This document shows positions 1 through 59,379 of a stretch of 64,000 bases of DNA, in pieces. The stretch's first letter is position 1. Every line of letters starts with the position of its first letter. The notes under the pieces are model-generated. The model was not told the DNA's origin. It was given only the letters and a program-made list of their open reading frames with translations, and made no database searches. The position numbers were made by a program, and so were the translations under genes. The stretch spans positions 6,341,675-6,405,674 of the forward strand of contig NC_087078.1 in the NCBI RefSeq assembly GCF_026151205.1, given 5' to 3'. Source of the stretch: Bolinopsis microptera (taxonomy: Eukaryota > Ctenophora > Tentaculata > Lobata > Bolinopsidae).

Positions 1-245
1 TGTATGATGTACATATTGTCATCCATGTTGTCACCCCAGTGTAGCACAAAATTTAAAATGCGACATTCACGCTGGGTAATATCTCTGTCTCTTGTCTGGA
101 CTCTTCTATTACTATTCCCTCTAATTCTATTCGTTACTTCGCCTTCTATTCCCTACACTGTTATCCCGGCAGTCGGCACCCTCTTGGTGTTCAACCAAAG
201 TACACTTCGTATTTAAGAGGGTAATAACGAACCAGTCCTTACCAG

Positions 246-405
246 AATTGTGGCACCGCCTGGTGGTCAAACGAGTATCAATCTGTACGGAAGGGGACAA
301 CCCGCCGCCCCACAACCAACAACCGCTGCCACAAAACCGACAGCCACTGCTCCACCACCGGCTAAAGCAGCCCCTGAACCAGCTGCTACTCCATTCTATC
401 GGTAG
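246..405 (+). CDS. Jupiter/HN1-like exon, tandem copy 1 (alternative last exon or relic)
   Basis: The exon starts after a TTACCAG splice acceptor at 239-245. It reads R/I-V-A-P-P-G-G, then a Pro/Ala/Thr-rich stretch, and ends PFYR-stop at 403-405. The PPGG motif followed by T-S-I-N-L-Y-G matches the repeated RPPGG..S-F motif of the Jupiter/HN1 (JPT) microtubule-associated family. The position where copies 2 and 3 have ATG is GTG here, so this copy cannot start translation there. It would be coding only if joined to an upstream exon ending in phase 2. A consensus AATAAA lies immediately after the stop (407-412). It is about 90% identical to copy 2, 492 bp downstream, including flanks. It could also be a decayed duplicate. 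Confidence 0.5.
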
Positions 406-406
406 A

Positions 407-412
407 AATAAA
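407..412 (+). terminator. Poly(A) signal after Jupiter-like copy 1
   Basis: AATAAA begins one base after the TAG of copy 1. The matching place in copy 2 has lost it through a short deletion, so copy 1 keeps the better 3'-end signal. Confidence 0.45.
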
Positions 413-737
413 GCATTCTGTTACTTCAAGTGTAGTATTTTCGGACCATAAATATTTAATAGTTTTGTTTGTTCTTATCGCTAAAATGTGATGTTAGGTG
501 CGATAATGTACTTTTTGTTGGACAGGTTATATTGTCAAGCTGTAAGTTAATTACTGCTTAACTGTTTTACCCAATACCCATGGATGGTAGTGAAATTTTC
601 GGAATGTTGTCAGGGTGCAGTTATGGAAGGGGATGAGTTTATACGTGAAGAAAATATGTTTCAGGCCATTATCCCCAAAAAATCAATCAAAGTGCATTCC
701 ATATTTTGGAAGGTAATAACGAACCAGTTCTTACCAG

Positions 738-897
738 AATTATGGCACCGCCTGGTGGTCAAACAAGTATCAATCTGTACGGAGGGGGACCACCCGCCGC
801 CCCACAACCAACAACCGCTGCCACAAAACCGACAGCCACTGCGCCACCACCGGCAAAAGTAGTCCCTGAACCTGCTGCTACTCCATTCTATCGGTAG
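738..897 (+). CDS. Jupiter/HN1-like exon, tandem copy 2
   Basis: It follows a TTCTTACCAG acceptor (728-737). It reads R/I-M-A-P-P-G-G-Q-T-S-I-N-L-Y-G, a Pro/Ala/Thr-rich segment and PFYR-stop (TAG 895-897). From the ATG at 742 it would be a 51-residue peptide with one PPGG motif and no second motif. The exon opens with one carried base, the same phase as copies 1 and 3. In vertebrate HN1 the PPGG segment is preceded by S-S-R-V-L, so the R-I-M here looks like an internal junction rather than a true N-terminus. Alternative last exon, short paralogue and pseudo-exon all remain possible. Confidence 0.55.
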
Positions 898-1242
898 AAA
901 GCATCATGTCACCTAAAGTGTAGCATTTTCGGAGCAAACATATTTTGTTCTTATCACTAAAATGTGATGTTACTTTTTGTTGGACAGGTTATATTTTCAA
1001 GTTTTTAGTTAATTAACTACTTTACCCATGAGTTAAGAGTGTAGAAAATGTGGTGTTTTGTTCTCCAAAGATGACCATTCCAGATGATTTTGAATATCCC
1101 AAATTTTTGCTACACTCTTAGGGAAACAACTCTCAGCCACCAGTAGAATTGCATAGAGAATCGCGCAGAATGTCGAGCAAAGCGTGCGCCTAATCAAACT
1201 GTGTCATATTTAGAAAGAAAGTAACGATCTCTTCCCTTTCAG

Positions 1243-1776
1243 AGTGATGGCACCTCCTGGTGGCAAGACTAGTATCAGCCTGTTTGGTGGGTACGGAGAA
1301 GACCCAGTCGCCCCAAAACCTAAAGCAGCTGCTCCTGCAGCAGCAGCCGCCCCAGCCCCTGCTGCTGCCTCCGCTTCAGCTCCAGCAGCAGCCCCTGCTC
1401 CAGCTGCAGCTGCTCCAGCCGCAGCTGCTGCCTCTGCAGGCGAACCGTTTGTGCCTGCTGGTCAGCGAGTAGCAAAGGTTTTTATTCTCAATCAGTTATT
1501 AATGCATCTTATTTATTCTTTTTGGAACCAGTAATTGCAGACTTTAGATTCAAACACTTTAGATAAAAACACATTTTACCTCAATTTATGAATTTAATAT
1601 TTTGCTAATTCTAATTTCCTCAGCCGGACAGATTCGAGAAGGAACACCAGGTGTCGAACTGCCAGAAAGCCAGGAACGAATCGAGTGTGTTCGGAGCCCC
1701 AGATCCCGGTGCAAGAAAACAAGTGGTCAAAATAGTCAGACCCCCTGGTGGCCAATCTTCCATCTCTTTCGGATAA
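1243..1776 (+). CDS. Jupiter/HN1-like microtubule-associated protein, main two-exon copy
   Basis: Exons are 1243-1477 and 1624-1776. The acceptor is CTTCCCTTTCAG (ends 1242), the donor AAG|GTTTTT and the second acceptor TTTCCTCAG. From the ATG at 1247 the product is 127 residues. It has an N-terminal PPGGKTSISLFGG motif, a roughly 45-residue Ala/Pro low-complexity linker, then SSVFGAPDPGARK and a C-terminal RPPGGQSSISFG-stop. The two PPGG boxes flanking an F-G-x-P motif are the signature of Jupiter/HN1 (JPT1/2), small unstructured proteins tied to microtubules and cell-cycle control. Phase is 0 across the intron. The exon begins with one carried base giving R-V-M-A-P-P-G-G, so a first coding exon may lie left of the window. 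The donor is weak (GTTTTT), but the frame and family motif continue exactly across it. Confidence 0.8.
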
Positions 1777-2420
1777 ACTGAGAGATTTTTTGTGGCTGTC
1801 ACATATTTGGGGTTGTCTGGCCAGGCCCTATGTGAGAGGATTATAATGTGACTGCATGTTGGACAATGTCATAATCTATGTATTTATTGCGCTGACCGCT
1901 TAATTGGATTTAGAACCTTCTTGAAGGTTCTAAAACCTCATTTCCCAGTTATTTCCCCTTTTTGACTACCTGTTTGCATGATATTGATCAGAATGATTCC
2001 AGTTATATTAGTTTGAGTAATTCAGAAGTTTTCTGCTTTTTTGATTGTCACAGCAATTCAATTACAAATTCACCGACTATATTATTTGAAGTTTTCCACC
2101 AAAGATGAAGTCTTAACATAGGCACTGATCAGTGATCAAGATATTTTCAGTAAACTCTCGTATACCTGTGTCAATTTATGTTGCTGAACAGTCACCAGTT
2201 TTAAAATTGGCATTGGATAGTTATTAATTTTAAGTTATAATTATACTGTATCAATAATATAGTTGTTTTACTGAATTTAGAAGCAATATAAAAATAACAA
2301 TTAAACAATTAATTTCAATTCGATGATGAGCATATACAAGCATTGTCATTTCTTAAATCACCTCATTATATTAATTTGAATTCATCAAATTCGTACAAAA
2401 CTAAAACTCTTCCATTTTAG
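1777..2420 (+). other. Jupiter 3' UTR / spacer before CWC25
   Basis: All frames are broken by stops. I searched by eye for the missing Cir_N exon of CWC25 and found none. The only structure is a hairpin at 1911-1932. Confidence 0.6.
1911..1932. repeat. Perfect hairpin in Jupiter 3' region
   Basis: TAGAACCTTC, a TT loop, then GAAGGTTCTA: 10 bp perfect arms, about 135 bp after the Jupiter stop codon. It could fold in the 3' UTR; function unknown. Confidence 0.6.
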
Positions 2421-3439
2421 CCCATCAGAACATGTCGGAGAAGCAGACAGAATGGATGTACTCCGGCACCAGCAAGCCTGATTTGGAACAGTATCTGCTG
2501 GGTCGGCGTATTGATGATGCGGTGGACCCTAACCAGGATACAGAGAAGGCCGCTGACTGGATCTCTGGAAAAGTTCCAGAGGATGGGGACATGGCGGGGC
2601 GGTCAGAAATGTGGAAAACTAGGGACGCTTTCGCTAAGGCTCGAGAGGATCCTATGTTCATTATTGAGAAGCAAAAGCGGAATGCTCATGTTGACTTGAA
2701 GAACAATCCGCTGAAAATGCAGAAAATAAAGGATCTGCTAGCATCAGAACTGAAAAAGGACTTGAAGAAGAAGAAAAAGAAGCGAAGGAAAAGTCGTGAA
2801 GAGGGCTCACCAGAGAGACGAGAAGAACCAATGTCATCATCCTCACGAAACAGATCTGATGTATCTGAACGTGGTTCAGATTCTCGGAGTGATAGGAAGC
2901 GCAGAATCAGTAGATCTCCAGAACAATCAGGTAGTAGACACAGATCTAGATCTCCTGTCAAACACAGAAACAAACGAGACAAGAATCGTTCTCGCAGCAG
3001 GTCGCGTGATAAACACCATCACAAACCTGGCTTCGGGCTTATAGTTAAATCCTCTACTAAACCCGCCACCGCTACTGAAAAACCCGCCACTTCTCAGAAT
3101 CCCACCTCGACAAAACCCGCCAAATCGAAATACCCAATCCCACGGGGCGGAAGTGGAATTAGCAAGAAAATGTCTGCGGAGGAAATGGCGAAAAAGAGGG
3201 AAGAAATGATGAGTAACGCTAAGGGTAGGGACGTAGAGCGAAGGGAACGATACAGCAAACACAAAGACACGGAACTAGAGGACACGGCTGCCAACAAAGA
3301 GGGTAAAGCTGAGTTCCTCCACAAGTTCAAAGTAGACTCGTACTCGTCTAATAGTACTACAGTGGAGGATAGGATAAAGAGTGGCATTTTCAGTAAGCAG
3401 AGGACTAAAGCTGATCTTGGGAAATTTCTGAAAAAATGA
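2421..3439 (+). CDS. CWC25: CWC25 spliceosome-associated protein (CCDC49), N-terminus not found
   Basis: CWC25 joins the activated spliceosome and promotes the first catalytic step. The exon begins after a TTCCATTTTAG acceptor (2410-2420). From the first ATG (2432) it encodes 335 residues: a W-M-Y-S-G segment, a YLLGRRID motif, D-P-M-F-I-I-E-K, N-N-P-L-K-M-Q-K-I-K-D-L-L, a Lys-rich coiled stretch, an Arg/Ser-rich middle (about residues 115-215), then K-M-S-A-E-E-M-A-K-K-R-E-E-M-M and a C-terminal block near V-E-D-R-I-K-S-G-I-F. These follow the order seen in animal CWC25. The conserved Cir_N block (G-G-G-D-L-N-L-K-K-S-W-H-P), normally the first 40-70 residues, is absent. The reading frame stays open from the acceptor to the ATG (P-H-Q-N-M), so the ATG may be internal, with a first exon beyond the Jupiter copies or lost. 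Confidence 0.9.
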
Positions 3440-4354
3440 TAAAATGCAGTTTTTTTAAAAGAGTTTTTAATGAAACCTGATTTGATGGCGAAACTGAATT
3501 TAACCACGATAATGATTATTGTCGGTATGACTGTTTTGAGATAATCTTTAAATAACTGACGACCATTTTAAAACAAGTTTGTGATATAAATTTGGGAATT
3601 TGACGTGATTTTAAGTTTATACACGCAGTTATTTATGTTCATTTAAAAAGATATTTAATTTCAAAACTTGATTCGTATATTTAAAAACAAGGATTTTTAT
3701 TGCATAAAACCGAACATCACCTCAATCTGATGATTTACTACTTAAATCTAAACAACACAGACTTGACGATCTTGTTAAAATAGAGAGGAAGGGAAGAGTG
3801 GGTTGTCAATTATATTTATCAATTTAAACTAGATTTATCGGGCCGGTCAAATTAAAGCCGATATGGTGGCTTCTATTTGAAGTGGCGTAGTAAAATGGTA
3901 TTTAGTGTTCACGTGAACAATTAAAACACTAACCTTTAGAGGTTGTAAATTGATTTAATTACAAAAGCAAAGAGCAAAAAGTATGGAAGTGAACGAACCA
4001 AGAGCAAAGAGCATGAGCAAAAAGTACGAAAATGCAGGACCTCATCAGCATCTGCACTCATGGACACGAAGGTATTTAAAAAATTTAATTAGGTAATAAT
4101 CAACTATTTTTGTTATTGGCCATTGGTATGCTAATGAAAGTTAAACATTAAAACAAATCGTTATACGTCCATGGTTGTGATCGTGGCAGTGCTTATAATA
4201 TAAATATAATTTTAATTAAAAACGTCCATAGTTCAGTTCAGACGAAAAATCTTGATCTTCACATAGCTCATTCAGTTCTGCAGTGTCTTTGGTAGCTTTA
4301 CGTTATCATCTATACTGTCCTCGTGTAAGATCAGGTCTCTGTAATACTGCATCC
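3440..4354. other. Intergenic region between convergent CWC25 (+) and GPCR (-)
   Basis: AT-rich, no supportable gene. It holds both 3' UTRs. A minus-strand AATAAA (TTTATT at 3696-3701) could end the GPCR transcript. A short purine-rich imperfect repeat of AGAGCAAAAAGTA type lies at 3966-4030. Confidence 0.55.
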
Positions 4355-5132
4355 AGCTCCACAGTATTAGTTTCACAGTTAGGATTGAGAACTTGCTGTA
4401 TGCTCAATATCTGTTTCACAGTTAGGAATGAGAGCTTGCTGTATGCTCAATATCTGTTTCACAGTTGGGAATGGGAACTTGCTCAATATCTGTTTCACAG
4501 TTAGGAATGAGAACTTGCTCAATATCTGTTTCACAGTTAGGAATGAGAACTTGCTCAATATCTGTTTCACAGTTGGGAATGGGAACTTGCTCAATATCTA
4601 TTTCACAGTTAGGAATGGGAACTTGCTCAATATCTGTTTCACAGTTAGGAATGAGAACTTGTTCAATATCTGTTTCACAGTTAGGAATGAGAACTTGCTC
4701 AATATCTGTTTCACAGTTAGGAATGAGAGCTTGCTCAATATCTGTTTCACAGTTAGGAATGAGAACTTGCTCAATATCTGTTTCACAGTTAGGAATGAGA
4801 ACTTGCTCAATATCTGTTTCACAGTTACGAATGAGAACTTTCTCAATATCTGTTTCAGAGTTACGAATGAGAACTTGCTCAATATCTGTTTCACAGTTAG
4901 GAATGGGAACTTGCTCAATATCTGTTTCACAGTTAGGAATGGGAACTTGCTCAATATCTGTTTCACAGTTGGGAATGGGAACTTGCTCAATATCTGTTTC
5001 ACAGTTAGGAATGAGAACTTGCTCAATATCTGTTTCACAGTTAGGAATGGGAACTTGCTCAATATCTGTTTCACAGTTAGGAATGGGAACTTGCTCAATG
5101 CCAGTTTCACAATTAGGAGTGCGGTTTTGCCC
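4355..5132 (-). repeat. 36-bp coding minisatellite in GPCR tail (about 21 units)
   Basis: Units of 36 bp encode a 12-residue repeat, V-[PL]-I-P-N-C-E-T-D-I-E-Q, nineteen times on the minus strand (to the stop at 4422). Two more units beyond the stop carry a 7-bp insertion (43 bp). Because 36 is divisible by three and the unit lacks stops in any frame, all six frames are open here. That creates long spurious plus-strand reading frames at 4428-5555 and 4465-5175. Confidence 0.95.
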
Positions 5133-8100
5133 TACGTCATTTTTAAGTTTAGGAGCAGGATCATGCTTGATATAAATATCAAGTTTAGGAGGGGTACCCT
5201 GCTCTTGAACTTTCACTTCCTGCATTTCTATCGCAACCATATTACTACTCACATCTACAGCTACTGTACTTTTTCTAAGAATGTCTGGAGAGATCTGATT
5301 AAAGAGCGTCATATGAGCCGCAACCCTAACAAACATTCTCCTGACCAGCTGGCTCACCTTGTCCGTTTGTCGCATCATTACCTCGCTGTACAAGAACGGG
5401 TTTATCACAGAGTTGATCGGCAGCAGGATGATCGAGAAGAGTCCATACTGGGGTGTGGCGTTCAGCACTTCAAAAAAGTGCAGGAAGCAAACCAAGATAA
5501 AGGGAACCCAACAAAGAAAGTCAGTGGTGATAATGGTGGCCACTTTCCGCTGTAGCTTTGAGTTTCTCTTGTTGACCATGTCAGCGGTTGGACCCTCGCC
5601 TTTTCTCAGGAAACTGGAGGATTTTATGGTGGAGATGTTGATGTAGACGTAAGCTGCAGTGACAATGACAAAGCAGATGATGTTGATAGTGAGGACTGAT
5701 ATTGTGAACAACCATTGGGGGTCATCTCGGGTCACGAAGTATTTGAAAAGGCAAACTCCGTCATTGCCATAGAAATCGACTCGTGCAATCTTGACATCAA
5801 GATTTCCATAGTCCGATGAAAACATAGACCTTACTAAATTTTCGATTAGGGCCCATCTAAGGATCCGCTTCTTCGACCTTCCGTAGTAATTTTGAATTAC
5901 GTTAAAATGCTTCGCTTTTCCAATCTGGCCTCGAAAAATTCTGATGGACTGGTCATAGACTAAACCATTCACAAAAAAGTCTTCCATAACTGGAAAAAGG
6001 GACACCACTGCAATGGCAACTGCAGAGATAATTATCAGTAAAATCAAAACTGCTACTTTCAATTTGTTTTTGCGGCTTATGGCACTATTTTCGCCATGAT
6101 GTTGGATTCGGTTCCTGTAAACTCCAATTGCCCGAATAGAGCTGAGTATAGTGAGAGAAAATAGGGAGACCTGGGTTCCAAAAGTACTGATAACACCCAT
6201 AAAATTGCAATATGAACTCGTCAGCCAACTGTACCGCATCTTGCAATATCCTTTGCCAGTTGACGTGGAGTCCGCAACAGCTACGAACACAAGATATAAC
6301 CCAACTAGTAGATCCCCAAGTCCGATCAGCATTACCAGGATTCTGTTTGTCAGGGACTCAGTCGACTTACATTGTCCAAAATTTCGTGCATTTTCGTAAA
6401 GAACGATAATGTTCAACACTGTTGCCAGCACACCAAGGCTCCAGGCAGCTACCTTGAGTGGTAACCCGTTAATGATTTCCTTTCCACACTCCGTGTTGCA
6501 TTCATCAGAGATGTCCCCACAGTCTGGGTTACCATCACATTTCTTATCCAGGGGGATATAACCCTGACTGTCATGACACTTGAAGCTGTTCGTACAAGCA
6601 GCTTCATCCGACCCATCTCCACAATCATCCCAAAGGTTGCACACCTTGTCGTAGTCTGTACACATGCCGTTGCCACACACGAAGTAGTCGTTGTGGTAGT
6701 CGTTGTGCCTCCTTGTTACAAATGTGAGGTGACTGTTATCAACCACTGTGTAGATACGGTCTGTGTACTGAGCCGGACAGTCTTGGAAGTCAACCCGTTT
6801 GGTCAGAGGGCAATCTGAGTTAGGACACTTTTGAAGACAGCTTAAAATGACATAGCCCTCACCAAAAAGGGAGTTACAGTCTGTTTCTTCTGCCGGATAA
6901 GTGACGATGGTTTTGCTACTCTTGCCATAAATATGCTGATCAAAAGGGCTGAACTCCTGGGAGACACACCCACTTATCTTCTCTATTAAATCCTCTAATC
7001 CTTTCAGGCAGTATTTAAGAACTTTTGTGTTTCCGTTAGTATAAACTGCGGTAGTCTCACTCGATAAGCCCTGTCCTATCTCACATATCAAATTTTCGCT
7101 TCCGCATTCATCCTCTCCGTTGCAAAGTTCAATCAAGGCTACGAATTTAAGCGCTCCATAGCACATGAAAACGTCTTGGCAGTCATCGACTTCATATCTC
7201 CTCGTGATGCCAGTTCCGCACTCAATTTTCCAATTCTCATCGACTCCATTTAAACAGTCCTCCACTCCGTCCATCAGCCATGCACCAGGTATAGGAAGTT
7301 TCCTGTTGGTCCGGTAGTTCCTGTAACACTCCTGATGGGTCTGAGCCCGACAGGAGGGATGAACCTCATCAGCGCCACTGGCACAGTCCGGGACCTTGTC
7401 ACAGAGTTGGTGCTTGTGAATGATGCAGGCTGGAGTCACCTGGATACATGCAACATCTAGACCATTGGTACAAAATCCCTTCCGAAACCTGCCACAGACC
7501 ATGGTTTTGGCGATCGTGCTGAGACCATATCCTTTGATGACGCATTGGACGGCTACCCTTGCTTCGTCACTGCAATTTGTCTGGTCTATATAGTCCAGGC
7601 AGTATGGGGTCCCTGTTTTGCTCACCTCTCTTTTGTTTGGATACCGAACGTAGGACTCTTCAGTGCTTGAGACAATAGCTGCACAGCGCGTTGAGTTAAA
7701 AATACGAATTCTCCGTTTGATGGACTTTCGTCTGTACAGCTCTCCGCCTATGCAGCTAGGTGTTTCTCGACTAATGTCATAGCATTCCCTTACTTCGTCC
7801 ACCGTTAACCCTGCTTGTACGTCCACACAATCACGAACACCATTGCACATCTCGTGGGGAGATATGTATGTAAAATGTAAGATTTTTTGGAGCACAATAC
7901 TGTATGAGGAGCACATTTCACCGTAAAAATAGCCATTGCACTGGCTTTCATCCAAGCAGTTCCAAACATCACAAATACTGTCGCAGACCATTTGCTCCGA
8001 AAAGGATTGGCAGTCACCCGGCTTATCCGTAGGACAATCTTTCACTTTCACGGAACCTATATCCCTTTCTTCATCACACCTAAGATTTTCTTCCTGGGCC

Positions 8101-9078
8101 TGGTTAAGATTTGTACATTCCATTTGGCATATTTCTTCTTTTAAGTTAGGAAGGACAGTGTCGTACTTATCCTCCTCGCAAAGGAGATATCCACATAAGG
8201 ACCATTGGTTGAAGCCAGACTCCGAGCCGATGTTGTTCCCGCACGCCTGAATTTGTATTTAAATCAATGAATTTGTACTGCTTAAATTTTTATATGTAAA
8301 TATGAAATTTACTAAAACTAGGTTTTCATTGTTACAGGTTACTGCAAAAGTTATGCAATTAACTTACACATCCTCAGCATTCTGTACTGACCAAACTATT
8401 AAAAAAAAGTAAACTTCCAGTGCTTGGTCCGAATCAGCACCTGCTGATTCAAATTGGGGTCGTTCACATATTACGTAATCAGCCGAGGGGGGAGCGGGGT
8501 TTCCAAATGATTACGCTTGTGTATTTTGTACATTACGGTCCCTAAGTATACGGGATACAACACCCACATTTACTTTCTGATGTAGCCACATTCGGACCAG
8601 TCACTAAGGTATTAAACAGTCAACAATCGGGAAATGGAAATGATTGGAATTGAATTTAGTAACCTGATAACCGTATGTGTCGTTGGAACAGGACGTATTG
8701 AAGATGTGTCTGTTACTGTAGGCGATCATAGGAGGTAGAATTCTGTAGAGATCTTCCGAATAAGCGCATTTGTATGTAGGGAACAATTCCAGTCCCCAGT
8801 CACATTTATTTTTAAGGTATCCTTTAACCTCTTGTATCTTACACGAACCTGAAACGGGGTTTATAATAAACGGGGTTATAAACGTTCTTTGAGTGTGCTA
8901 CCTCATTTATTACTTATCTTGTTTTAAAAAATGTTTCATTATTTGAAACCATAAAATGGCCAGTTAATGTATAAATTATAAATTATAATTACAAATTATA
9001 ATTACTTGATGTCGAAGTGTCCACTTGCGTGAGTAGTAAGAACACAAAACCAAGCTCCAGACGAGCTAATATCTTCAT
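4422..9078 (-). CDS. LDLa-repeat rhodopsin-class GPCR (relaxin-receptor/GRL101-like) with repetitive tail
   Basis: Three exons: 9078-9006, 8848-8664 and 8246-4422. The joins are in phase 1 and 0 and give about 1360 residues. Residues 1-22 are a signal peptide (M-K-I-L-A-R-L-E-L-G-F-V-F-L-L-L). A Cys-rich ectodomain to about 675 contains about five LDLa-like modules, the clearest near 605-671 (C-G-D-G-S-D-E and C-G-D-I-S-D-E-C). Seven hydrophobic segments run from about 680 to 1045, with a long second extracellular loop of about 95 residues and N-P-F-L-Y at the end of TM7. The D/E-R-Y position reads S-I-R. LDLa modules before a class A core are typical of relaxin-type and molluscan GRL101-type receptors, which sense extracellular ligands through G proteins. 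No leucine-rich repeats are seen. Residues from about 1124 to the end are nineteen 12-residue repeats. The ligand is unknown. Confidence 0.92.
8456..8550. mobile_element. Fragment of GGGTCGTTCACA-end transposon in GPCR intron 2
   Basis: The 37 bp from 8456 (GGGGTCGTTCACATATTACG and onward through CAGCCGAGGGGGG) match the reverse complement of the right end of the element at 62122-62787 with a single difference. The right border is uncertain. An ACATTACGGTCCC string at 8530-8542 may be a decayed opposite end. Confidence 0.75.
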
Positions 9079-43467: not shown

Positions 43468-46400
43468 ATGCTGCTATGGGTAAAAACCGTTAAAAGTGTT
43501 CTCCTCTTCCTATCCCTGTTCCTGATATGTCAACAAAAGGACATTTCCCTGGGAATTCTCGTCCCCTGGACTGGTGCATCTTGGGATGAGGGCCCCAGGT
43601 GAGCCCTTAATTTAATACAAACGTTATTTTCCTTTTAAATCTTAATTATGATTTTCACTTTTTATTTTCTATTTCAATTTCTAACCTTAAATTTTAAATT
43701 TGAGTAGTCAAGTAGTATACTTGAGAATGTATTCACAACTATGCATGGCATCTATTTTGGAATGTTGATTCTGACTTCTGAGTCCACCAAAATATCACTA
43801 CACCATCTCTACAGGGCGATTGCAGCTGCCTATCTAGCAATAAACGAGATTAACGAAAACTCGGCCCTTCTCCCTGGCTACAAACTAGTACCACAGTGGC
43901 GTGATGACGCGTGCAGTGTCCCTGATTCTCTGGCCAATGTTACCGACTTGTGGTCTAAGAAGTATGTTTTTCAGCTTGAGGATGAAATCGGTCAATTTTG
44001 GAGAGTTTTGAAGTTAATTTTTATAGATTTTTGCCTGAGTGACCTCTTTTAGTCTTTCAGTCTTTCATGGTATCGATAAACGCAATTAATTATTCCAAAA
44101 TTTCACATGAAATTCTCATAGCTTCATTCTATAATTAACCCCCTAAAACCCACTAAAAACCCCATAAACCTCCCTTGTAACCCCACTCCCCTGACAGTGT
44201 AGACGCGTTTATCGGTCCTGCCTGCTCAGTGTCCTGTGAACAGACAGGTCACCTGGCAGCCCACTGGAACCTCCCCATGATCTCCTGGGCCTGTGCTAGT
44301 CCTGCTCTATCAGATAAGAAGACATACCCCACATTTGTCAGGACTGCTGGACCTTATAAAACTCTTGGCAAACCTTTCACAGGTTCGTTTTGAAACGGTT
44401 TTCGTTTAGATTGCTTCTTAGAATTACGATAAGAAAATTGTCTGTTTTATTTACTGAATTGTCCAATTTCTGTCAGTCTATTAAGTAACAAAGCATGTTG
44501 TCTAGATTTTTACACGATTTGTCTTACACGATTGCAAAGAATTTAGAATTTGACCACAGTGCAAATTGTAAAGTTAAATGCTCACCAAACGTCTTTCTTT
44601 GAACCGTCTCCCCCAGAACTGATGAAGCATTACAAGTGGTATAGGTGCGCTATCATCTCCGCTAACCAGAACCTTTTCGCTCAGTCAGCCAGACATATTC
44701 AGAAAGTTCTCGAAAAGGTTAGTTTTTAGGAAGTCCTCGAGAAGGTTAAGATTTATCAGAAATAAATCTTGAATTTTCTATGAGGCGTTCAGACAAAGAT
44801 TGTTCGGGAGTGTCGGGTATCTTTCCAGTTGAGCATGTTCTTATTCTAGCACTAAATTTGGTACAAAAGACTTGGAAACCTGTCGATAATAATAAAGAAG
44901 GATTGAACAATAACAGTCCATTATGCATTTCTGTCCATTTTACAGTGGGTTAGTGATTGCCTTTGGGAAAGTTGGAAGTCGTGCACCCTAACCCCCCAGT
45001 GTTTTAGTATCCTACAACTTACCCTAAACTCCTACAGGAGAAAGTGTCCGATAACCCGGAGGACTGTAAACCCGGAAGTGACGATTGCCAGATCAGTGTG
45101 GTGCTGTACAAACAGTTCTACTCCGGCAAGAACCCCGGTGCTAACCAAACACTAGCTATTGAGAGGAACGAGCTGATGAAGGAGATTAAGGAGAAGGCCC
45201 GGAGTAGGTCACCTTGCCTAAATAGTCTTGTTATAGTCTTGTTATAGTCTTGTTGTAGTCTTGTTATAGTCTTGTTATAGTCTTGTTATAGTCTTGTTAT
45301 AGTCTTGTTATAGTCTTGTTATAGTTTTGTTATAGTCTTTTTATAGTCTTGTTATAGTCTTGTTATAGTCTTGTTATAGTCTTGTTATAGTCTTGTTATA
45401 GTCTTGTTATAGTCCTGTTATAGTCTTGTTATAGTCTTGTTATAGTCTTGTTATAGTCTTGTTATAGTCTTGTTATAGTCTTGTTATAGTCTTGTTATAG
45501 TCTTGTTATAATCCTGTTATAGTCTTGTTATAATCTAGTTGTAGTCTTGTTATAGTCATGTTATAGTCTTGTTATAGTCCTGCTATAGTCTTGTTATAGT
45601 CTTGTTATAGTCTTGTTATAGTCATGTTATAGTCTTGTTATAGTCTTATTATAGTTTAGTTATAGTCTTGTTATAGTCATATTATATTCTTATGACTAAT
45701 GACAGTCTTTTTATTATTCATTCCTGTGTATCTGCTACACTGTAAATGTTGTACCATACAAATCAAATACTCGGGACATTCTGAATTGTCAAATACCTAA
45801 CATTTTTATAGAGGCCTTATACCGTCGGAAAATAAATCAAAAATGGTAAAATTTTCCACATTTGGCATAATACATACAAATATTGAGTAAGCTATTTATA
45901 CTTCGTTAGTTTCACATTCTCTCACTACATGTTATTAACAACACTGCATCTTCAGTAATCTTCATTTTGGGGTACACTGATGATGTGCGAGACTTTCTCC
46001 TCAGAGCTGAAGCTGAGGATATGCTCAATGGATACGTTTGGGTTGGGGTCGACATTTTGGGGTGGGTTATAATTAGTTTACCAGAATTTTTAAACATACT
46101 TGACGAATTTTGGCCTGTGTGTGAGTCAATATTTACTTTGAGAGGGTTCTCTCAATCGAGTAGCCTGAACCGAGGAACTGTGCATTTCATTTTCATAAAA
46201 TATTGAATTAAAATCTCGTTTTGCCTGAATCCAAGTTTACTGAACCAGATTCATAATAAAAAAGATGTCGTGCAAACCTTGGCGACTTTTTAATTTAATT
46301 TTCAATTAATAAACCGGTTGCGCCATGAGTACAGTAGCCCGTTCTCAACTTCCACACCACTTCCACTTATTCTCTCACCTCTATATGGACAGTGCTCTAG

Positions 46401-50900: not shown

Positions 50901-53900
50901 TCAATTCATATTTAGTTCAAATATTTAAAGTCAAAATAACCATTTCACATAAGTGGTTATATTATAATAAAATAATTTGTGATAAATTAATAAATTAATT
51001 TACACTCAAAAATGAACAAAATATACACAATTTTTACCTAGTGCAACACTGGTTCAGCGCGCGGCTGATCGAAAAAGTTTGATTTGATTTACTAACTACA
51101 GTGTACAGCGTACATGAAAAAATTACTTACTGAATCTTTTAATACTAGACACATTTTAATTCAGATGTTGTTCAATGAGTTAGCCACAAAAATGTTCAAA
51201 TTATGTAGGAGGGTAAAGGACACAATTGCTAGTAGTGCTTCTTTGTGCCCACATAAATTCAGATGCTATCCTCAATTTTAAATAATTTATGAACGCAGCA
51301 TCTTTCAAAGCTTTAGTGATTTCAATCTTATATAGCTTTGATAATTTCGCCTATACGAGAACCTAAACAAAAAATCTGAACCTAACCCTAAATTTTCCTG
51401 GAAAATCCTATTTAAGTTTTACCACCACCACACTTCCCCCAGGCACTAGAGTATATCCACAAGTCAGTGCTACAATACCACGGTAACCTGAGTAGCAACT
51501 CTCTGGGAGTGGACTCACATTGGGTGCTGAAGATATCAGACTATGGGTTAAGGGACTTCAGGGCAGGTTGCATGGACACAGACGAAACTGAGGACCACAA
51601 ATATACCAGTGAGTTAGATCGGGGGTGATACAATTTAAGATGATATAATCGATTATGATTCGTTTTTATATAACGTAAATACATGCAATGTGTATAATCA
51701 ATTAATACATTACCCAGACAATAAATGGATAACAGAAGGTCTTAACTTTTATAACAACAAAACATGGAGTTATCGCAGCGATCATATTTTTAATTCCGTA
51801 AACAGTCTATTAACAATTGTTTCATGATCTATCGCAGTTTTAAATTATTATTAAATCTATATGGAAAATCTGCAATGAAATCAGTTCGAACTTTGATCAC
51901 TTAATTACTGTCCTCGCTTTGTGGTTCTACTTCTTTCTTGGCTTATTTTTCTTACCTTTAGGTTTCTTTATAGCTACCCCACAGCCAAGTAATCCAGCCA
52001 AAGCATCCATGAAACGTTGTGCGCCGGGGAGATTGTCTGATAGTACGGGAACATTATCATCCATAGTGACTGGTATTGCTGCTCGCATCTCCTCTGGTAG
52101 TTCCACTCTAGGCATATCGTTCCAGATAATAGCATTACCGCAACCGTAGTATTTTGAAGGATCAGTGCTGATGGTCTTTGGTATATTCCTTTTCCCACTT
52201 TTTAAGATGGAGAAAATTCCATCAGAGAACCGTTCGAACGTGAAAGTAGCCAGAATTCCAAAACTAGGATCCCTGAGATCTAGAGAAGTCGAAGGTCTGT
52301 TTCCGCAAGTTGTGGCTCCGTCACATCCCTCTACCTTGGTCCAGACTAAGTCACAATGAGGGCACCTTCTCGCCTGATCCACTCCGTGGGCACTTTGATA
52401 CTCTGCAGCTGCCACACGCACATCATACAGTACCACTCTCATCTGATTCACCATGTTGGCTATGTGCCCTGCTTCATTGGCACCTTCTTCTCCGGAGAAA
52501 GTGAAGTCGTTCTCTTCCGCTACTCTCCGTTGTGCAGCTTCTATCTCCCTCCTCATATAAGCTTGAAACTCGAAAATAAGATCAACTTTGTCATTTTCCT
52601 TATCGAACAGTTTTCTCTGTTTATCAAACCCTGCCTTATTTTTCTTGAAATCTTCTACCTCTCTGTTAGTGCATCTCAGGATTTTCAGACGGCTGTCGTT
52701 GATCTTAAAAACCTTTAAGAAGTTTTCGTTATCGATCGTTATCTCAACTCCTTTCACACAGATTTCCTTCATATCTTCAAGTAAAATCTCCCGCGGGGTA
52801 TCTAATCCGGAGAACACAACAGTTTCAATTCCTAATTCTTTTTCAAGCAAACTTTTAAAGTCTTCACCAGACCAAGTAACCGTATCCATATGGGTTATCA
52901 AAGCTCCCATCAGGTCCATCGGGAAGTCCAGCATTCGCTCTGCATACTTTCTGATTCCATCCAGCGTATTATCCATCCTGGTATCAGCTTTGGAGATGAT
53001 CATAATCCTCCAGACGGGGTTAAAGTTTAGAGCATGAGCTATGTGAATGTTGTGTCCAAGTTTGTCTTGAGCTGCGTTACTTCCTGGGGTATCACTGATA
53101 ACCATGCTGCTATCGTACGTCCAGAACTGCTCAGAAGTTCGAGTAAAACTGAGATCACTTTTAGAGCTCCGGCCAACTTCGTGTGATAATTTCTCAACGA
53201 TGGTTGACTTGCCCGTACCCACGTCTCCTATCATCACTATGTAGGGTGTGTCTGGGGTAAGGTGTCCGACCAGGGTGGATTCTCGTGATGAACCAGCCTG
53301 ATCCATCATTACAAGCAGAGAAAAATTTTTAAAAGCACTGCCACAAAATGTCAATCTAATTGATTTTTTTTAAAGTAACTACTGGTCAAAGCAATGTTGA
53401 CAGTTTAGAAAAGGCACGAGTTCTTTGAAAATCCAGCTGATTCCTTTGCTAAAAACTGTTTTGACTGTCACTTGGCGTATGTCGGTATTTATGGTCAATT
53501 TGTTGGTTTGTGCAAGCGTAGCAAGAAAGGGCATCTTACAAAAAGTAGTGTTAGATTTAATGGAACTGTTCTTTAATTGAACTGTTTGTTAATGATCGCA
53601 ATTAAGTCAAAGTTAAAGCTAAAGGTTAGCAATCTTTTTACTATTAACATGTCCTTGAATAACGCATACCAACAGCTGGAATAAACTCGTCCTAAAACTG
53701 GACGCAACAGAGCTGGTCACCAGGAAGATTGTGGTATGCTCGGCGAGTGGCCCATCTGAAAACCTCGATTTCTCCATTTTTATTAACAACTGACCACCTC
53801 TATGATTATCAAAACGTCTAACAAGTTAGATCGAACTCTCACTGAATCACATCTAATTTCTATAATTATCCGCAGTTTATTATCTCCTACTAATGGACTA

Positions 53901-56900
53901 AATACTTAACACACTGATTAGTTGAATTAATCACCTTCTCACCAGGTAAACTGTGGAGAGCTCCAGAGTTCATTCTCTCGGAGAATGACTTCAAGGGCTC
54001 CCAGAAGGGAGACATCTACTCTTTTGCAATAATCATCAACGAGATCCTCACCAGACAGTACCCCTTCGAAACCTACAGTGGTTCACCAAAAGGTACGACA
54101 GCATACACCACCGTTTACTGAAATAATTTTGCTTTTGATTTTTAACCATCTTGTGTGATTAAATAAGCTGCGATCAGCTCCTCGATTGTATCTAATTTGA
54201 GTGCATGGATCAAATGAGGCGATCCTAGTACGACCAATCCCAATGACTGCCAACAATGAATGATCTGTTGCAATTAATTGTTTTTTAATTAGTTAATTGT
54301 TTAATTATGTTCGGTCGATTTCACGGGCCATTGTCAAACAACTTAATGGGCATTGTGGAAAGATGATACTTACAATTTGGAATGGTCGTTGACTCTGAGG
54401 CGCCCAAAAAAGTAGGTTTCCTGTTTCCCACGATGCCACTAACCATGAATTATTATTTTATAACTTCAATTCCTTTATGGTATTAAACTCATGAAAGTTG
54501 TCGATACGTTTCTCATACCCATATCCATCCACTTTTAAACTGAAAACACATTCTATAAACGTTAAACAATAAACATATTATCTAGGCCTATAAACATTAA
54601 ACTTTCTATATAGGCCTATAAACATTAAACTTTCTATATAGGCCTATAAACGTTAAACATATTATCTAGGCCTATAAACATTAAACATATTATCAGATTC
54701 AAATGCTCCAAACTACCGAGGTTCGTTGCATGAACAGTTTAGCACTGCTTTTGCATGCTATAAGCGAAAGCATAGTCATCGAGATTAAATGAAGAAATAA
54801 GAAAATGTTTTTTAACGTTCTTAGGCAAATCAGTCGATTTCAATGTTTTCATATTAAACATCTAAAGGAACCTAAATTTGGCTTTGGTATCAACTATCAT
54901 GTTTGAAGGAGGCCCAGTTTAGTCAATATTTAATGTTTTCCTCACTATGTTAAATTTTTGCCACAAATTCGCGTGAGCATGACATCTAGTATGGGTTATC
55001 GTCTTGTTAAAGCCCTGCAATTTTTTAATGGTATTTATTTGGAATATGATCCCCATAGTTCTGAATTTTGTAATCCTCAATTCTCCATACAAAATGTTTC
55101 CTATAGTTTCTTTATCAAAAACCTTGTATGAAGTATTTAACTATTGCTCTTGATGCTTACTCTTTGCGCTCTTCAGTACTGCATTAAGATTTCATCTAAC
55201 TTCTTTAGAACTTAAACCAAGTCATCATAACTATCTTTCATGTTGCTCCACAATGATTAAAGCATCATCAGCATACTTCAAATTCTACTCTCCACGAGAA
55301 TTTCCTCAACGATTCTCGAAAATAATGATATTTGAACTTGAATTGTTCCTGCGTACCCTTGACCAGGGTAAGCTTAATTTCAAACTTTTCCAACAGAGAT
55401 AGTAGAGAGGATATCAACGTGCGAGGAACCTCCGTGTAGACCAGAGCTGGAGGAGAATAATAACGAACAGGTTATATTTTACTCTGAGTACTTAGACTTA
55501 CCCTTGCCTATTGCTAGCATCTTAGATATTTTGTAATATTCATAAATCGCAGGGAGTATAATTGGTAAATGATCCGAAATGATCGTAACAATAGCATGCT
55601 TAAGAAATAAGTTTTGTTAGAATGAAACAATTCGAACTAACATTTAAAAGCAATTGTGGGTCTAACTCTTCTTTACATCAGCTAACTAGTCTACAAAAGT
55701 TGGTCCGAGAGATGTGGTCTAACAACGACCTTGCCAGACCAGATATCGGAGTGATCAGACGACGACTCAAACACATCTACCCTGAAAAGTAGGATTATTT
55801 GATGATTTACTTCAGTTTCCTAGCTTAATGTTAAATAACCTACTGTAACTTAGTGACTGTGGTACAAGAGAAACACTTCCCAGTTCTTGCTACAGAAATA
55901 AAGAATACCACGATTCTCTAGATCACAGTTGAAGGGACTAGACCCTCAGAGTACTCAATAACTCCACTTTTACACCCCGATCCCTTCCCCAGATCACGGA
56001 GTATAACAGAGAGAGTGATAATGATGATGGAAAAGTACGCAGCTAACCTGGAGATCAAGGTAGACGAGAGAACTGCTGAGCTTCAGATCGAGAAACACAA
56101 AGCAGACCAGTTACTCTACCGTATGTTACCCAGGGCTGTTGCGGAGAAGATGAAACAAGGGCAGAGTATACGGGCGGAGTTGTTTGATACAGTGACCGTG
56201 TATTTCAGTGACGTGGTATCCTTTACCAACCTCTGTTCCCAGAGCACTCCCATGGAGGTCAGTACATCCAGCTCGCACTTAGTTTTCTGGAGTGTACACA
56301 ATCCTGGGGGATTCGACCAAAATGTCAATCAACAAACAATCATTGCTCCTTTAATTAATCACTTACCAGCTTACAAAAATAATTCATAGTTTAATGGTTC
56401 CAATTAGATATGAATAGTTATGCTATCCCTATTTATTGGTTGGTTGTAAAATTTAAAGTTTGTTTTACACATTCTCAGAGTTTTCATTGTTCTAACGTCA
56501 GGTGGTAGCGTTTCTGGACGACATGTACACTATGTTTGACTCCATCATAGAATCATACGACGTGTACAAAGTGGAAACTATTGGTGATGCTTACATGCTG
56601 GTATCCGGACTTCCTGATAGAAATGGTGCGTTATTGCTATTGTGCCACTTTTTGTATCCGTATTTTTTTTCCTTTCAAATTACTTACCAGATCTATAAGA
56701 TGTTCGTTTATGTTCTATTTTTGATTTGAATAAAAGGATACTAATACTAGTATTGTTTTCGTCCTTGACAGGGACGTATCATTAGAATCTCTAGAGCTTC
56801 AAAATCTCCACCGCAACTTTATCAATATACGATTCAAGCCAATAGAAAGTCTTTCTTACGCCGATTTTTGTTAGATTCTATTAAATCGAAACTTCCAAGT

Positions 56901-59379
56901 TATTCACACTTTTACCTTCAGGTGACTCCCACGTGATAGAGATAACAGAGACAGCTCTTGCTCTAATCGAGGGAACCAGGAACTTTAAAGTCAGACACAA
57001 ACCCGGCTATCAAATGCAGATACGAGTCGGTATACACTCAGGTTGGTATTTTTTAATTATAAACTCATTCATAAACCTTGTAAAACTAGTAAACATAAAC
57101 GACATTATAGACGCAAGTTTTGGTTAAAATAGCCGATCACATGGGAAAATTGTTTTGTTATATTATAGCATTAGCAATATTATTAACAGTTGTTGAACGT
57201 AAAGTTAAACCAAGCTCCGTTTTCAGGACCATGTTGTGCTGGGGTAGTGGGCAAACTTATGCCCAGATACTGTCTCTTCGGAGACACCATCAACACTGCA
57301 TCTAGAATGGAGAGCAACGGAATGCGTTAGTTATTTTACAGACTTTTTAGTTAGTTTTTAGTTAAGATAACCGAAAATAATTAAGAACAACCTAAAACAT
57401 ATTTGTGTTCCCCTTTCACTGATTTCACTTTCACTTTCACTGATTTCACTTTCAGCGATGAGAGTTCACATGTCCCAGTGTACATACGAACTGTTAGAAC
57501 AATACGATTGTTACAACTGCTCTGAACGAGGTGGTACTATCGAAGTGAAGGTAAACTTCAGATCAGTCTTTATCATACTTCATACTGAATTGTTTCGTTA
57601 ATGTTGTATGTTATTTCTCAATTGTTCAAATCCTTCCGGAGGTGCTGATTACCTTCACTGTAAACTCTTGACTTTCCTACTTTTATTCTTTGAAACTCAG
57701 CATACTCAACAATACTCAGCATACTCAACAATACTGTAGACTTTCAATCTCTATTTTCTAATTATAGCCTCCTGTATTTGTTGAATGTTAATCTACTCTT
57801 TATATTCATCTCAGTACTCTCAAATTATATTAACATCCAATTTCGACGACGATCAAAAACTTAATTTTGGTCTAAGAAAGTCGAACGTTAAACGGTAAAC
57901 TGCAGGGTAAAGGACCGATGAAAACGTATTTCTGTGAACACTCTGGGAAGGAGCGACCGCGGCTAATTAAAGAGCTGCGGAAAGAGGCACAACACAAACA
58001 TGTAAAAAATAAAATGAGTCCGGCGCTGAGCCACAGCCGGAACAGTCCAGCGCTAAGCCACAGCCAGAATAGTCCAGCGCTAAGCCACAGCGGACGCAGT
58101 GAGACTAGCTTTGCAGAGTCAGTTTTGGAGGGTGCTGCTAAAACTTGCGGTATTGAAGATAGTGATGGAGTGCGGGTCGGTTTTTTAGGGTTTTATGAGC
58201 CAGTTCCTGCTTGCTGAAATCCACGATTCAGTTGCTTTTACGTCATGTGTTGGCGGAGGCTAGGATACCACCCGGATTATTGTGTCATTGTTGAGGCATT
58301 TTATTTTTGAGATGAAGGTCTCCTTATTCTAACAAGGGAGCATTGAGCATCTCAATTGTGGGTTTTTAGTAAATTTTGTGTAGTTTTTTAACGTTAACTT
58401 TTACACTTTTTTTTGTGACATCACGTGAGCGGTGAGCTCGACAGCAGATTCAACACATTGAGCGTACCCTCAAGAACATTCGAAAATGTGATCGCCAGAA
58501 CTCCAATTCATTTAAACGAACAGCCGTCACTGGAAATTGAAAGTTCTGAGCATGAGTGAAAGGATGGAACTGTTATTCCTGTACCAGTTTGCTATTCTGG
58601 TACCAGTTTGCTATTCTGGTGCATTATACGGTGCTGTGAAAGATCGATTTAAAGGGTATTGCCATTGGTGTGAAGCATTTACCATGATTTTTGTAGCCAA
58701 TAGTAGCGTGTTTCTAGTTCGGGTACCACTGCACCTGCTATAGCTAATCAAACCAAATTCGAACTAGCCATATCTACAATATACTACCTACAGTTACAAA
58801 GAAATAGCTATAGCTATGAGTATGACTGCCTCAAAGATATAGCTAGTAACTAAGCTACAGTTGCTAAAGGCTATAATAAAGCATTACTTGCAGTTGCACT
58901 CTAACGCCAACGGGTATTTTCTCAAAAATCTCGGAATATGCTATAACAACTATTCTTACTCTTGTTCTCAAAGGTTTTGGTATCATGGCATAAGAGTAAC
59001 ATTGCTTTGGGTTTAAATAATTTTCCTAATTATGTAATTACCACTATAAGCACTCTCATGACTTGAATTTAACGAACACTGAAGTAAAACAATAATATTT
59101 CAGGGTAAAGGAGCAATGAAAACGTACTTCTGTGATGGAATTGACGACACCAAATTTCGTCCAAAACTAGTCAAAAGCACTGTTCCTGCACTAACTCCAG
59201 CTTCAGATGCCTCCAAAAGAGGGAGTCAAGTTCGGCCACCTCCTAAAGGGTACCGCCCTCTACCCAGAGCATCTCCCAACGGCTCAATTACGCGGTCACC
59301 TGGCGCCAACAAACGCGCCAACAAATCGTGCGAGCCACTCTTACGAGAACTCAACAATCTGGAAGATTCTGCAGTTTGA
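43468..59379 (+). CDS. Receptor guanylyl cyclase (natriuretic-peptide-receptor type), about 26 coding exons
   Basis: A single-pass receptor that would convert GTP to cGMP. Exons chained by splice sites keep phase throughout and give 1137 or 1125 residues depending on the last exon. Order: signal peptide (about 1-22), ANF-type ligand-binding ectodomain (to about 460), transmembrane helix (about 467-487), kinase-homology domain (about 520-800), short coiled linker (V-D-E-R-T-A-E-L-Q), cyclase catalytic domain (about 850-1034) and a variable C-terminus. The ATG at 43468 is chosen because it opens directly into the hydrophobic leader [10 protein letters not shown]. Intron lengths run from about 100 to 2340 bp. 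One intron holds an opposite-strand GTPase gene and several hold tandem repeats. Length and order are typical of animal receptor cyclases. The ligand cannot be inferred. Confidence 0.95.
45222..45690. repeat. 11-bp minisatellite in cyclase intron 5 (about 42 copies)
   Basis: The unit TAGTCTTGTTA is repeated from just after exon 5 (19 bp past the donor), with point variants toward the distal end. Confidence 0.95.
47763..47790. repeat. C28 homopolymer in cyclase intron 10
   Basis: 28 C, 36 bp upstream of exon 11. No paired G-run nearby. Confidence 0.9.
48208..55788 (+). CDS. Receptor cyclase exons 12-20: transmembrane helix and kinase-homology domain
   Basis: Exons: 48208-48289 (membrane helix [13 protein letters not shown]), 48896-48995, 50095-50184, 50400-50556, 50701-50798, 51443-51608, 53946-54092, 55397-55470, 55682-55788. 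Kinase-like motifs are [24 protein letters not shown] in place of the catalytic H-R-D, S-D-Y-G-L in place of [10 protein letters not shown] and [10 protein letters not shown]. Loss of the catalytic Asp is normal for receptor cyclases, whose kinase-homology domain is regulatory. Confidence 0.9.
48768..48878. repeat. 18-bp tandem repeat before exon 13, about 6 copies
   Basis: The unit GGAGCTAACACCATATAC is repeated and ends about 18 bp before exon 13, inside the acceptor region. Confidence 0.92.
49395..49505. repeat. 9-bp tandem repeat in cyclase intron 13
   Basis: The unit CTGATCTAT (with CTGATCAAT variants at both ends) is repeated about 12 times. Confidence 0.92.
51927..53309 (-). CDS. AIG1/GIMAP-like GTPase with C-terminal zinc-type Cys motif, nested in cyclase intron 17
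   Basis: Intronless. 461 residues from the ATG at 53309; an in-frame start 15 codons upstream is less likely. The N-terminal GTP-binding domain has a P-loop G-D-V-G-T-G-K-S-T (G1), S-D-T-P-G (G3), and L-I-T-H-M-D in the G4 place (T-K-x-D or, in AIG1 proteins, R/H-K-D). A charged helical linker follows (about 215-300). Then comes [22 protein letters not shown], resembling one zinc knuckle of IBR/RING-between-RING proteins. The C-terminus is Lys-rich ([13 protein letters not shown]). AIG1-type GTPases act at membranes in immunity and cell survival. The role here is unknown. It lies wholly within the intron between cyclase exons 17 and 18, on the opposite strand. Confidence 0.82.
   Translation of the reverse strand: MMDQAGSSRESTLVGHLTPDTPYIVMIGDVGTGKSTIVEKLSHEVGRSSKSDLSFTRTSEQFWTYDSSMVISDTPGSNAAQDKLGHNIHIAHALNFNPVWRIMIISKADTRMDNTLDGIRKYAERMLDFPMDLMGALITHMDTVTWSGEDFKSLLEKELGIETVVFSGLDTPREILLEDMKEICVKGVEITIDNENFLKVFKINDSRLKILRCTNREVEDFKKNKAGFDKQRKLFDKENDKVDLIFEFQAYMRREIEAAQRRVAEENDFTFSGEEGANEAGHIANMVNQMRVVLYDVRVAAAEYQSAHGVDQARRCPHCDLVWTKVEGCDGATTCGNRPSTSLDLRDPSFGILATFTFERFSDGIFSILKSGKRNIPKTISTDPSKYYGCGNAIIWNDMPRVELPEEMRAAIPVTMDDNVPVLSDNLPGAQRFMDALAGLLGCGVAIKKPKGKKNKPRKK
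54552..54693. repeat. Tandem repeat of about 32 bp in cyclase intron 18
   Basis: Units of AGGCCTATAAACATTAAAC with CTTTCTATAT or ATATTATCT linkers, about 4-5 copies. Confidence 0.88.
55993..57550 (+). CDS. Receptor cyclase exons 21-25: linker and guanylyl cyclase catalytic domain
   Basis: Exons: 55993-56257, 56502-56625, 56922-57041, 57227-57325, 57456-57550. The coiled linker ([14 protein letters not shown], then L-L-Y-R-M-L-P) leads into [10 protein letters not shown] (metal-binding Asp near residue 873). [10 protein letters not shown] follows, with the guanine-specifying Glu and the second metal Asp near 917. Next come [15 protein letters not shown] and [17 protein letters not shown] (guanine-contacting Cys, transition-state Asn and Arg). 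All residues needed for GTP rather than ATP use are present, so this should be an active guanylyl cyclase. Confidence 0.95.
57906..58217 (+). CDS. Receptor cyclase alternative last exon A
   Basis: It follows a TGCAG acceptor in phase 0, as exon 25 requires. It starts [10 protein letters not shown], the usual end of the cyclase domain, and continues for about 95 residues of variable tail. The tail contains three near-identical copies of S-P-A-L-S-H-S-x-x-N and ends P-V-P-A-C-stop. An AATAAA at 58875-58880 lies between this exon and exon B. Confidence 0.85.
   Translation, partial: GKGPMKTYFCEHSGKERPRLIKELRKEAQHKHVKNKMSPALSHSRNSPALSHSQNSPALSHSGRSETSFAESVLEGAAKTCGIEDSDGVRVGFLGFYEPVPAC
58875..58880 (+). 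terminator. Candidate poly(A) signal after last exon A
   Basis: AATAAA, 658 bp after the exon A stop and before exon B. Its use would commit the transcript to the exon A isoform. Confidence 0.4.
59104..59379 (+). CDS. Receptor cyclase alternative last exon B
   Basis: It follows a TATTTCAG acceptor in phase 0. It starts [11 protein letters not shown], nearly the same as exon A, then an unrelated basic Pro/Ser-rich tail ([12 protein letters not shown]) ending L-E-D-S-A-V-stop. The last four residues D-S-A-V resemble a class I PDZ ligand (S/T-x-V), which exon A lacks. A candidate AATAAA lies at 60391-60396. Confidence 0.85.
   Translation, partial: GKGAMKTYFCDGIDDTKFRPKLVKSTVPALTPASDASKRGSQVRPPPKGYRPLPRASPNGSITRSPGANKRANKSCEPLLRELNNLEDSAV

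Follow-up and report, generated by a model that had tools for sequence, protein, structure and literature searches.

A coding minisatellite at the C-terminal end of a predicted class A receptor in the ctenophore Bolinopsis microptera

Introduction

The closest described counterpart of the repeat array analyzed here is the exon 3 VNTR of the human dopamine receptor D4 (DRD4), which is summarized in one published account as a coding repeat of 48 bp that lies in the third intracellular loop and is present in 2 to 11 copies (PMC3164202). Both are coding minisatellites in an intracellular part of a class A receptor, with a unit length that is a multiple of 3. As far as that account describes the human case, the two differ in position, since the present array lies in the C-terminal tail rather than the third intracellular loop, and also in form, with a 36-bp unit, 19 in-frame copies and a stop codon inside the array. 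In addition, the DRD4 VNTR is known to be polymorphic, whereas the present array is represented by one sequence only.

A looser parallel is offered by the cephalopod rhodopsins, whose C-termini are summarized as significantly longer and proline-rich (PMC9740569). As in the present case, these are class A receptors with a long C-terminus of unusual composition. However, the cephalopod tails are described as proline-rich, while the tail considered here consists of acidic 12-mers with Cys, and so the likeness is one of description and not of sequence. The C-termini of cephalopod rhodopsins are also known to contain repeats.

With respect to the rest of the receptor, the relevant systems are the leucine-rich-repeat-containing receptors (LGRs). 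Cnidarian LGRs with several LDLa modules are described as clustering with placozoan ones, and in the GRL101- and relaxin-type LGRs, according to the same description, LDLa is joined to a 7TM domain like that of the glycoprotein hormone receptors (PMC4079206). The present gene has this same combination, but unlike those receptors it has no leucine-rich repeats (LRRs) that we could find in the exon-3 ectodomain.

The present array is thus the same kind of thing as the known receptor repeats, in another place and in another receptor. Among the matches listed in a literature search there is no receptor with a repeat-built C-terminal tail, although one may still be in print, and no description of a tail of 19 units with a stop codon inside the array.

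In this manuscript, we use the term window to refer to the whole stretch of DNA that was analyzed (64,000 nucleotides of contig NC_087078.1), and all positions are numbered from its first letter.

Results

The receptor gene

The array lies in frame at the 3' end of a minus-strand ORF of 1278 aa (8258-4422). We propose two further exons upstream (Table 1), and the joined coding sequence of the three exons is a multiple of 3, contains no internal stop, and encodes a 1360-residue protein starting with MKILARLELGFVFLLLTQVDTSTS. The gene model is based on splice-site sequence and reading frame only. In this model, the 7TM domain and the entire tail fall within one exon.

Table 1. Positions in the window of the receptor gene, its repeat units and the features at the edges of the array.
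Feature	Position	Strand	Basis
Proposed exon 1, start codon and signal-peptide-like N-terminus MKILARLELGFVFLLLTQVDTSTS	9006..9078	-	frame-compatible splice sites, donor CAA/GTAATT; signal-like by eye
Proposed exon 2, start of Cys-containing ectodomain	8664..8848	-	acceptor TTTCAG/, donor CAG/GTTACT
Exon 3: Cys-rich ectodomain with LDLa, 7TM, repeat tail, stop codon	4422..8246	-	ORF of 1278 aa; Pfam
Decayed unit GTPPKLDIYIKH	5163..5198	-	22/36 bases as in CCC-form unit, same register; codon-shuffle P 0.0004
Decayed unit DPAPKLKNDVGQ	5127..5162	-	22/36 bases as in CCC-form unit, same register; codon-shuffle P 0.0004
First clear unit NRTPNCETGIEQ (NRTP unit)	5091..5126	-	27/36 bases as in CCC-form unit; 0/5000 shuffles
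18 near-identical units V[PL]IPNCETDIEQ	4443..5090	-	unit survey, frame and variant counts
7-bp insertion ATACAGC at end of unit 18	4438..4444	-	read directly in sequence
Stop codon TAA	4422..4424	-	ORF end; unit survey; tail end HTASSHS
About 1.6 further units past the frameshift	4370..4435	-	untranslated beyond the stop in this sequence

The ORF matches the Pfam families 7tm_1 (43.3 bits; cut-off 30.5) and Ldl_recept_a (34.8 bits; cut-off 24.1). The best 7tm_1 stretch comprises residues 831-957 and covers the profile's second half (positions 133-260 of 260), while the 7TM part scanned alone gives two 7tm_1 stretches. The Kyte-Doolittle profile has peaks above 1.5 for TM1, 2, 4, 5, 6 and 7, and a peak of 1.45, just below this value, for TM3. 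Class A GPCRs have a CWxP motif in TM6 and an NPxxY motif in TM7, which are present in the translation as FLCWVPF and INPFLYS, respectively. An E/DRY-type motif is expected at the end of TM3 in this class; here the end of TM3 reads IRA by eye, with the Arg kept and the flanking residues not. With a 7tm_1 match above the cut-off, seven hydrophobic segments, and the CWxP and NPxxY motifs, the protein classifies as a class A (rhodopsin-like) GPCR. The best sequence matches, based on PDB chains only, are LHCGR (8e-12), TSHR (2.1e-11), FSHR (8.2e-11) and RXFP1 (5e-8), and the 7TM part accordingly resembles those of the glycoprotein hormone and relaxin receptors.

The LDLa modules appear as two stretches at E 0.001, and as three at E 5 when the ectodomain is scanned alone. 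In GRL101-type receptors, LRRs are found between the LDLa modules and the 7TM domain. Of these two features the present receptor has the several LDLa modules; only Ldl_recept_a matches were obtained from the exon-3 ectodomain at E up to 5, and no LRRs, in a scan that was limited to exon 3 and in which the HMMER filters drop most weak matches. Because LRRs are lacking from the exon-3 ectodomain even at E 5, we do not assign the receptor to the LGRs or to the GRL101 type.

No paralogue was found in the window, the one match outside the gene being of 19 residues at E 0.88, and tRNA and Rfam scans of the window gave no matches. The neighboring ORF at 2405-3439 (plus strand) has a CWC25 splicing-factor domain (Pfam, 48.4 bits); it is convergent with the receptor gene and lies approximately 1 kb from the receptor stop codon.

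Size, units and reading frames of the array

Tandem Repeats Finder (TRF) delimits the array at 4444-5118, with 18.8 copies of a 36-bp unit, 95% matches and a score of 1196, which is the highest among the 51 TRF rows of the window. The units are near-identical, in tandem, in frame, within 10-60 bp and a multiple of 3 in length, and the array therefore belongs to the coding minisatellites. When the tail is cut into 12-residue blocks, the in-frame part consists of NRTPNCETGIEQ followed by 18 units, and so 19 is the right count for this part. Each of the 18 units agrees with the DNA consensus at 33-36 of 36 bases, and the exact pattern V[PL]IPNCETDIEQ occurs in 13 of the 19. Among the matches listed, there are no more copies of the unit in the window, except for matches of 18 bp or less.

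The first-pass annotation had described a receptor tail made by a minisatellite, with nineteen 12-residue repeats and about 230 repeated residues. This description is borne out by the TRF array, the ORF, and the position of 7tm_1 upstream in the same uninterrupted exon; counted from residue 1127, the tail has 234 residues, with 18 Cys and a net charge of -52. The annotation had also considered the array to be open in all six frames, which turns out to be incorrect. The numbers of stops over 4444-5118 are 0, 24 and 0 for frames +0, +1 and +2, and 54, 0 and 1 for frames -0, -1 and -2, such that three of the six frames are open across the array. The lone stop in the third of these last frames is made by the unit with a Thr-to-Ile variant. 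In the bare consensus unit four of the six frames are open, and this is the commonest outcome (36.5%) for tandemised random 36-mers from the same exon.

The related idea that copy number can change without loss of frame stands for whole units, because 36 is a multiple of 3, but it fails for other shifts. Measured from where each of the first 18 in-frame units (of 19 in total) begins, the stop-rich frame runs into a stop after 3-5 codons, and the other shifted frame after 7 to 175 codons.

Edges of the array and the in-array stop codon

The 36-bp register of the array continues upstream through two decayed units (5127-5198). When the GTPP, DPAP, NRTP and CCC-form units are compared with each other, similarity is greatest at zero offset in all six pairs (shuffle P ≤0.0022). 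The next 12-mer outward, AIEMQEVKVQEQ (AIEM), is unrelated to the unit (P 0.30 to 0.63).

At the distal edge, unit 18 is 43 bp in length through the 7-bp insertion, and the reading frame is shifted. The insertion is flanked by two AGC triplets, which makes its exact placement ambiguous. A second copy of the insertion occurs in the next unit, at 4395-4401, and is followed by a partial unit.

The receptor stop codon is a product of the array, since the insertion shifts the frame onto a TAA of the following unit that is otherwise hidden. Out-of-frame copies of this TAA occur in 16 of the 19 in-frame units, spanning two codons (mostly CCT AAC, for Pro-Asn). The other three units have CCC for CCT and lack the TAA, but contain two TGA in that frame.

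Past the array, no stop interrupts the frame of the unit over the 28 codons that begin with the partial unit (VLNPNCETNTVELDAVLQRPDLTRGQYR). We considered an ancestral distal tail in this region and dropped it as unsupported, not disproved: the codon-usage scores (best of three frames) are -0.004 for 4290-4392 and -0.182 for 4207-4330, both of which are below the 5% point of the coding range (0.030).

Variation among the units

The 18 units of 4443-5090 (i.e., without the NRTP unit and the two decayed units) differ at nine sites, and in the used frame seven of the variants are nonsynonymous and two synonymous. One of the nonsynonymous variants, CAA to CAT, results from the insertion, and leaving it out brings the count to 6 to 2. 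If single bases of the unit change at random, the neutral expectation is approximately 24% synonymous (20-27% depending on transition bias), and the probability of at least two synonymous variants under neutrality is 0.66 at nine sites and 0.60 for the 6 to 2 count. The same nine variants include five synonymous ones in one unused sense frame, which means that variation does not preferentially spare the used frame. The commonest variant is the Leu/Pro replacement, which divides the units 10 to 8. In the three older units, the conserved residues are not clearly above the neutral level (P 0.98, 0.57 and 0.07), although the NRTP unit, with 8 of 12 residues kept against a neutral mean of 5.99 (P 0.07), gives a hint toward constraint.

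The ratio of synonymous to nonsynonymous changes was one of the checks that the first-pass annotation had set beforehand for its own proposal, and the outcome goes against it: 7 nonsynonymous to 2 synonymous variants is what is expected without selection, at the low power given by nine variant sites. The variant counts remove the evidence for constraint, and they do not prove that constraint is absent, because homogenisation leaves few countable sites. The unit pattern is kept nearly throughout, with Thr in 18 of the 19 units, and homogenisation accounts equally well for this. Similarly, there is no stop and no frame-shifting indel in 4443-5126, which counts for little because an ORF by definition ends at the first such event.

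Alternative explanations of the tail

If the tail were selected as a docking or phosphorylation array, the Thr of each unit, with its acidic flanks (ETDIE), would be a target for a kinase of the CK2 or GRK type, the phosphorylated repeats would dock arrestin or a scaffold, and repeat number would set the strength or duration of signaling. The 322 residues after TM7 do contain 19 CK2-like [ST]xx[DE] sites. Eighteen of these are the unit Thr, present in all but one of the 19 units, and the remaining one is a SETD within a variant unit; on the basis of one Thr per unit, a multivalent phosphorylation array is possible. However, no constraint is visible in the variants. The arrestin code PxxPxxP/E/D does not occur, and PxPxxP/E/D was seen twice, once in the one variant unit where Ser replaces Cys and once in the C-terminus TASSHS that the frameshift creates. 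None of the simple patterns that we applied for SH3, WW, class I PDZ, PxIxIT (calcineurin), TRAF, 14-3-3 and dileucine is matched. We regard a selected array of this kind as rather doubtful. It is unlikely, too, that the tail is absent from the mature receptor, either because transcripts splice or end before the array or because the array is misassembled, in which case the open frame would be a by-product of a unit that is stop-free in that frame. A donor-like AAG/GTGAGC at 5357, just after TM7, fits this reading and scores 8/9, compared with 7/9 for both donors of the gene model, and there is an acceptor-like site at 4130. Against this, exon 3 alone has three donor-like sites that score 8/9, and in 3440-5357 a single acceptor-like site passes 10/15 pyrimidines, although this carries little weight, as the same threshold would miss the exon-3 acceptor of the gene model itself (7/15). 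Codon usage bears on both sides. With +0.121 in the used frame, the array scores lower than the maximum of 118 non-coding chunks (0.133), but it exceeds their 95% point (best of three frames, 0.070) and falls within the range of coding sequence from that exon (5% point 0.030, median 0.193); because one unit is repeated, it represents approximately 12 independent codons' worth.

A structural role, in which the tail would be wound into a beta-solenoid of 12 residues per turn, with the Cys residues forming a ladder, appears very improbable. AlphaFold2 (AF2), run on the 7TM part plus the tail (one sequence), predicts strands through most of the 12-residue tail units, and the tail has weak PDB sequence matches to 4gt6 (4.3e-5), 7crb (5.2e-4) and 4fs7 (0.0024), which we take to be chains of leucine-rich-repeat proteins. 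The pLDDT of the tail is nevertheless only about 48-57, and the mean for the model of 7TM and tail is 45.8. The antisense (plus-strand) reading of 4432-5172, where no gene is apparent and which is presumed to be untranslated, was modeled as a solenoid-like stack of strands (as read off the strand pattern of the model), with a mean pLDDT of 84.6 and a pTM of 0.84. These confidences are not strictly comparable, since the antisense control (247 residues) was modeled by itself and the tail within a sequence of 692 residues. According to a published study, when AF2 is given random sequences in perfect repeats it can produce solenoids that are confident but unrealistic (32 of 78 models; PMC11795689). 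Regarding the PDB alignments, no single stretch of the best match passes E 0.01 by itself, one stretch of the second does, and the other four of the seven matches (E 0.02 to 0.3) are unrelated viral glycoproteins, which indicates the noise level of the tail matches. We reject a beta-solenoid or LRR-like fold on the antisense control, the AF2 caution (PMC11795689) and these alignments, and we give no weight to the predicted tail fold because the antisense reading was also modeled as solenoid-like, and more confidently. The antisense fold is a natural-sequence example of the AF2 repeat artefact, and as such a useful caution. A match of the tail to DUF7476 (23.1 bits; cut-off 27) and the NCBIfam matches (four for the tail and three for the antisense reading, all far below the cut-offs) are likewise taken as repeat-driven noise.

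Other repeats and genes in the window

We examined 24 chosen arrays of the 51 TRF rows. The second-highest array (45222-45691) has 42.7 copies of the 11-bp unit ATAGTCTTGTT, with 92% matches and stops in all six frames. This array is non-coding, which shows that minisatellites arise in the window without coding function. It is located near a receptor guanylate cyclase-like gene (ANF_receptor-like match at 43708-44049, 23.7 bits, below the cut-off of 25.4).

At 58017-58091 (plus strand), there is an in-frame repeat (2.8 copies of 27 bp) in an ORF that looks like the C-terminus of a guanylate cyclase gene. No Pfam family matches this ORF, and the start of a cyclase domain is matched in 55922-56386. 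This is possibly a second signaling receptor in the window with a tail repeat and, in light of it, receptor tails that contain repeats may not be a rarity in this genome.

Two other regions drew our attention. In 1-1780 (plus strand), two near-copies of an exon-like stretch with APPGGQTSINLYG can be seen by eye at about 220-410 and 714-896, next to a third, Ala/Pro-rich exon-like stretch with PPGGKTSISLFGG at about 1245-1480. This looks like a partial tandem exon duplication of a gene that we take to be Jupiter/HN1-like; there is no Pfam match in 1214-1531. At 51927-53369 (minus strand), a 480-aa ORF has an MMR_HSR1 GTPase match (24.0 bits; cut-off 21.9) and a Cys-rich stretch, and resembles the GIMAP/AIG1-like proteins.

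Searches for relatives of the array and the receptor covered prokaryotic and viral collections, and the absence of relatives from these is for that reason uninformative on animals. A 24-base piece of the unit has no exact match in the viral contig collection, the prokaryotic genome contigs contain 11 stretches that match the unit pattern, none of which is a relative by tblastn, and the 7TM part has no relative in the viral contigs.

Discussion

On balance, we lean toward the view that the array is a coding minisatellite in an acidic tail, which serves as a tolerated and probably length-variable spacer whose exact sequence is little selected and contributes little or nothing to function. A short tail segment of an LDLa-bearing class A receptor would have been duplicated in 36-bp steps, and slippage or unequal exchange may then have kept the middle of the array homogeneous, with older units decaying at the membrane-proximal edge and frameshifted units at the distal edge. 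If translated, the product would be a strongly acidic, repetitive and probably disordered extension of 234 residues, and any effect of the tail would presumably come from its net charge and from the 18 acidic-flanked Thr sites past TM7. The frame would be safe only for changes of whole units, since a shift into the stop-rich frame would bring translation to a stop after 3-5 codons of the next unit. The present receptor stop codon is reached by a shift of this type.

One could go further and suppose a mutable tail, in which both the length and the very end depend on the state of the minisatellite (...EHTASSHS when a 43-bp unit frames the hidden TAA), repeat number is a heritable phosphorylation dial, and frameshifted units are exchangeable stops that shift the C-terminus along the array. 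We consider this to be quite improbable. On present evidence, the array is a coding minisatellite of an ordinary sort, with no sign of selection.

The C-terminal tail usually controls receptor desensitisation. If the present tail is translated and variable in length, it would be a further natural case, beside the DRD4 VNTR, of an intracellular receptor part that changes in discrete steps, and it would make possible a direct test of whether tail length alone alters signaling. The in-array stop codon illustrates how the point at which a protein ends can be determined by a minisatellite.
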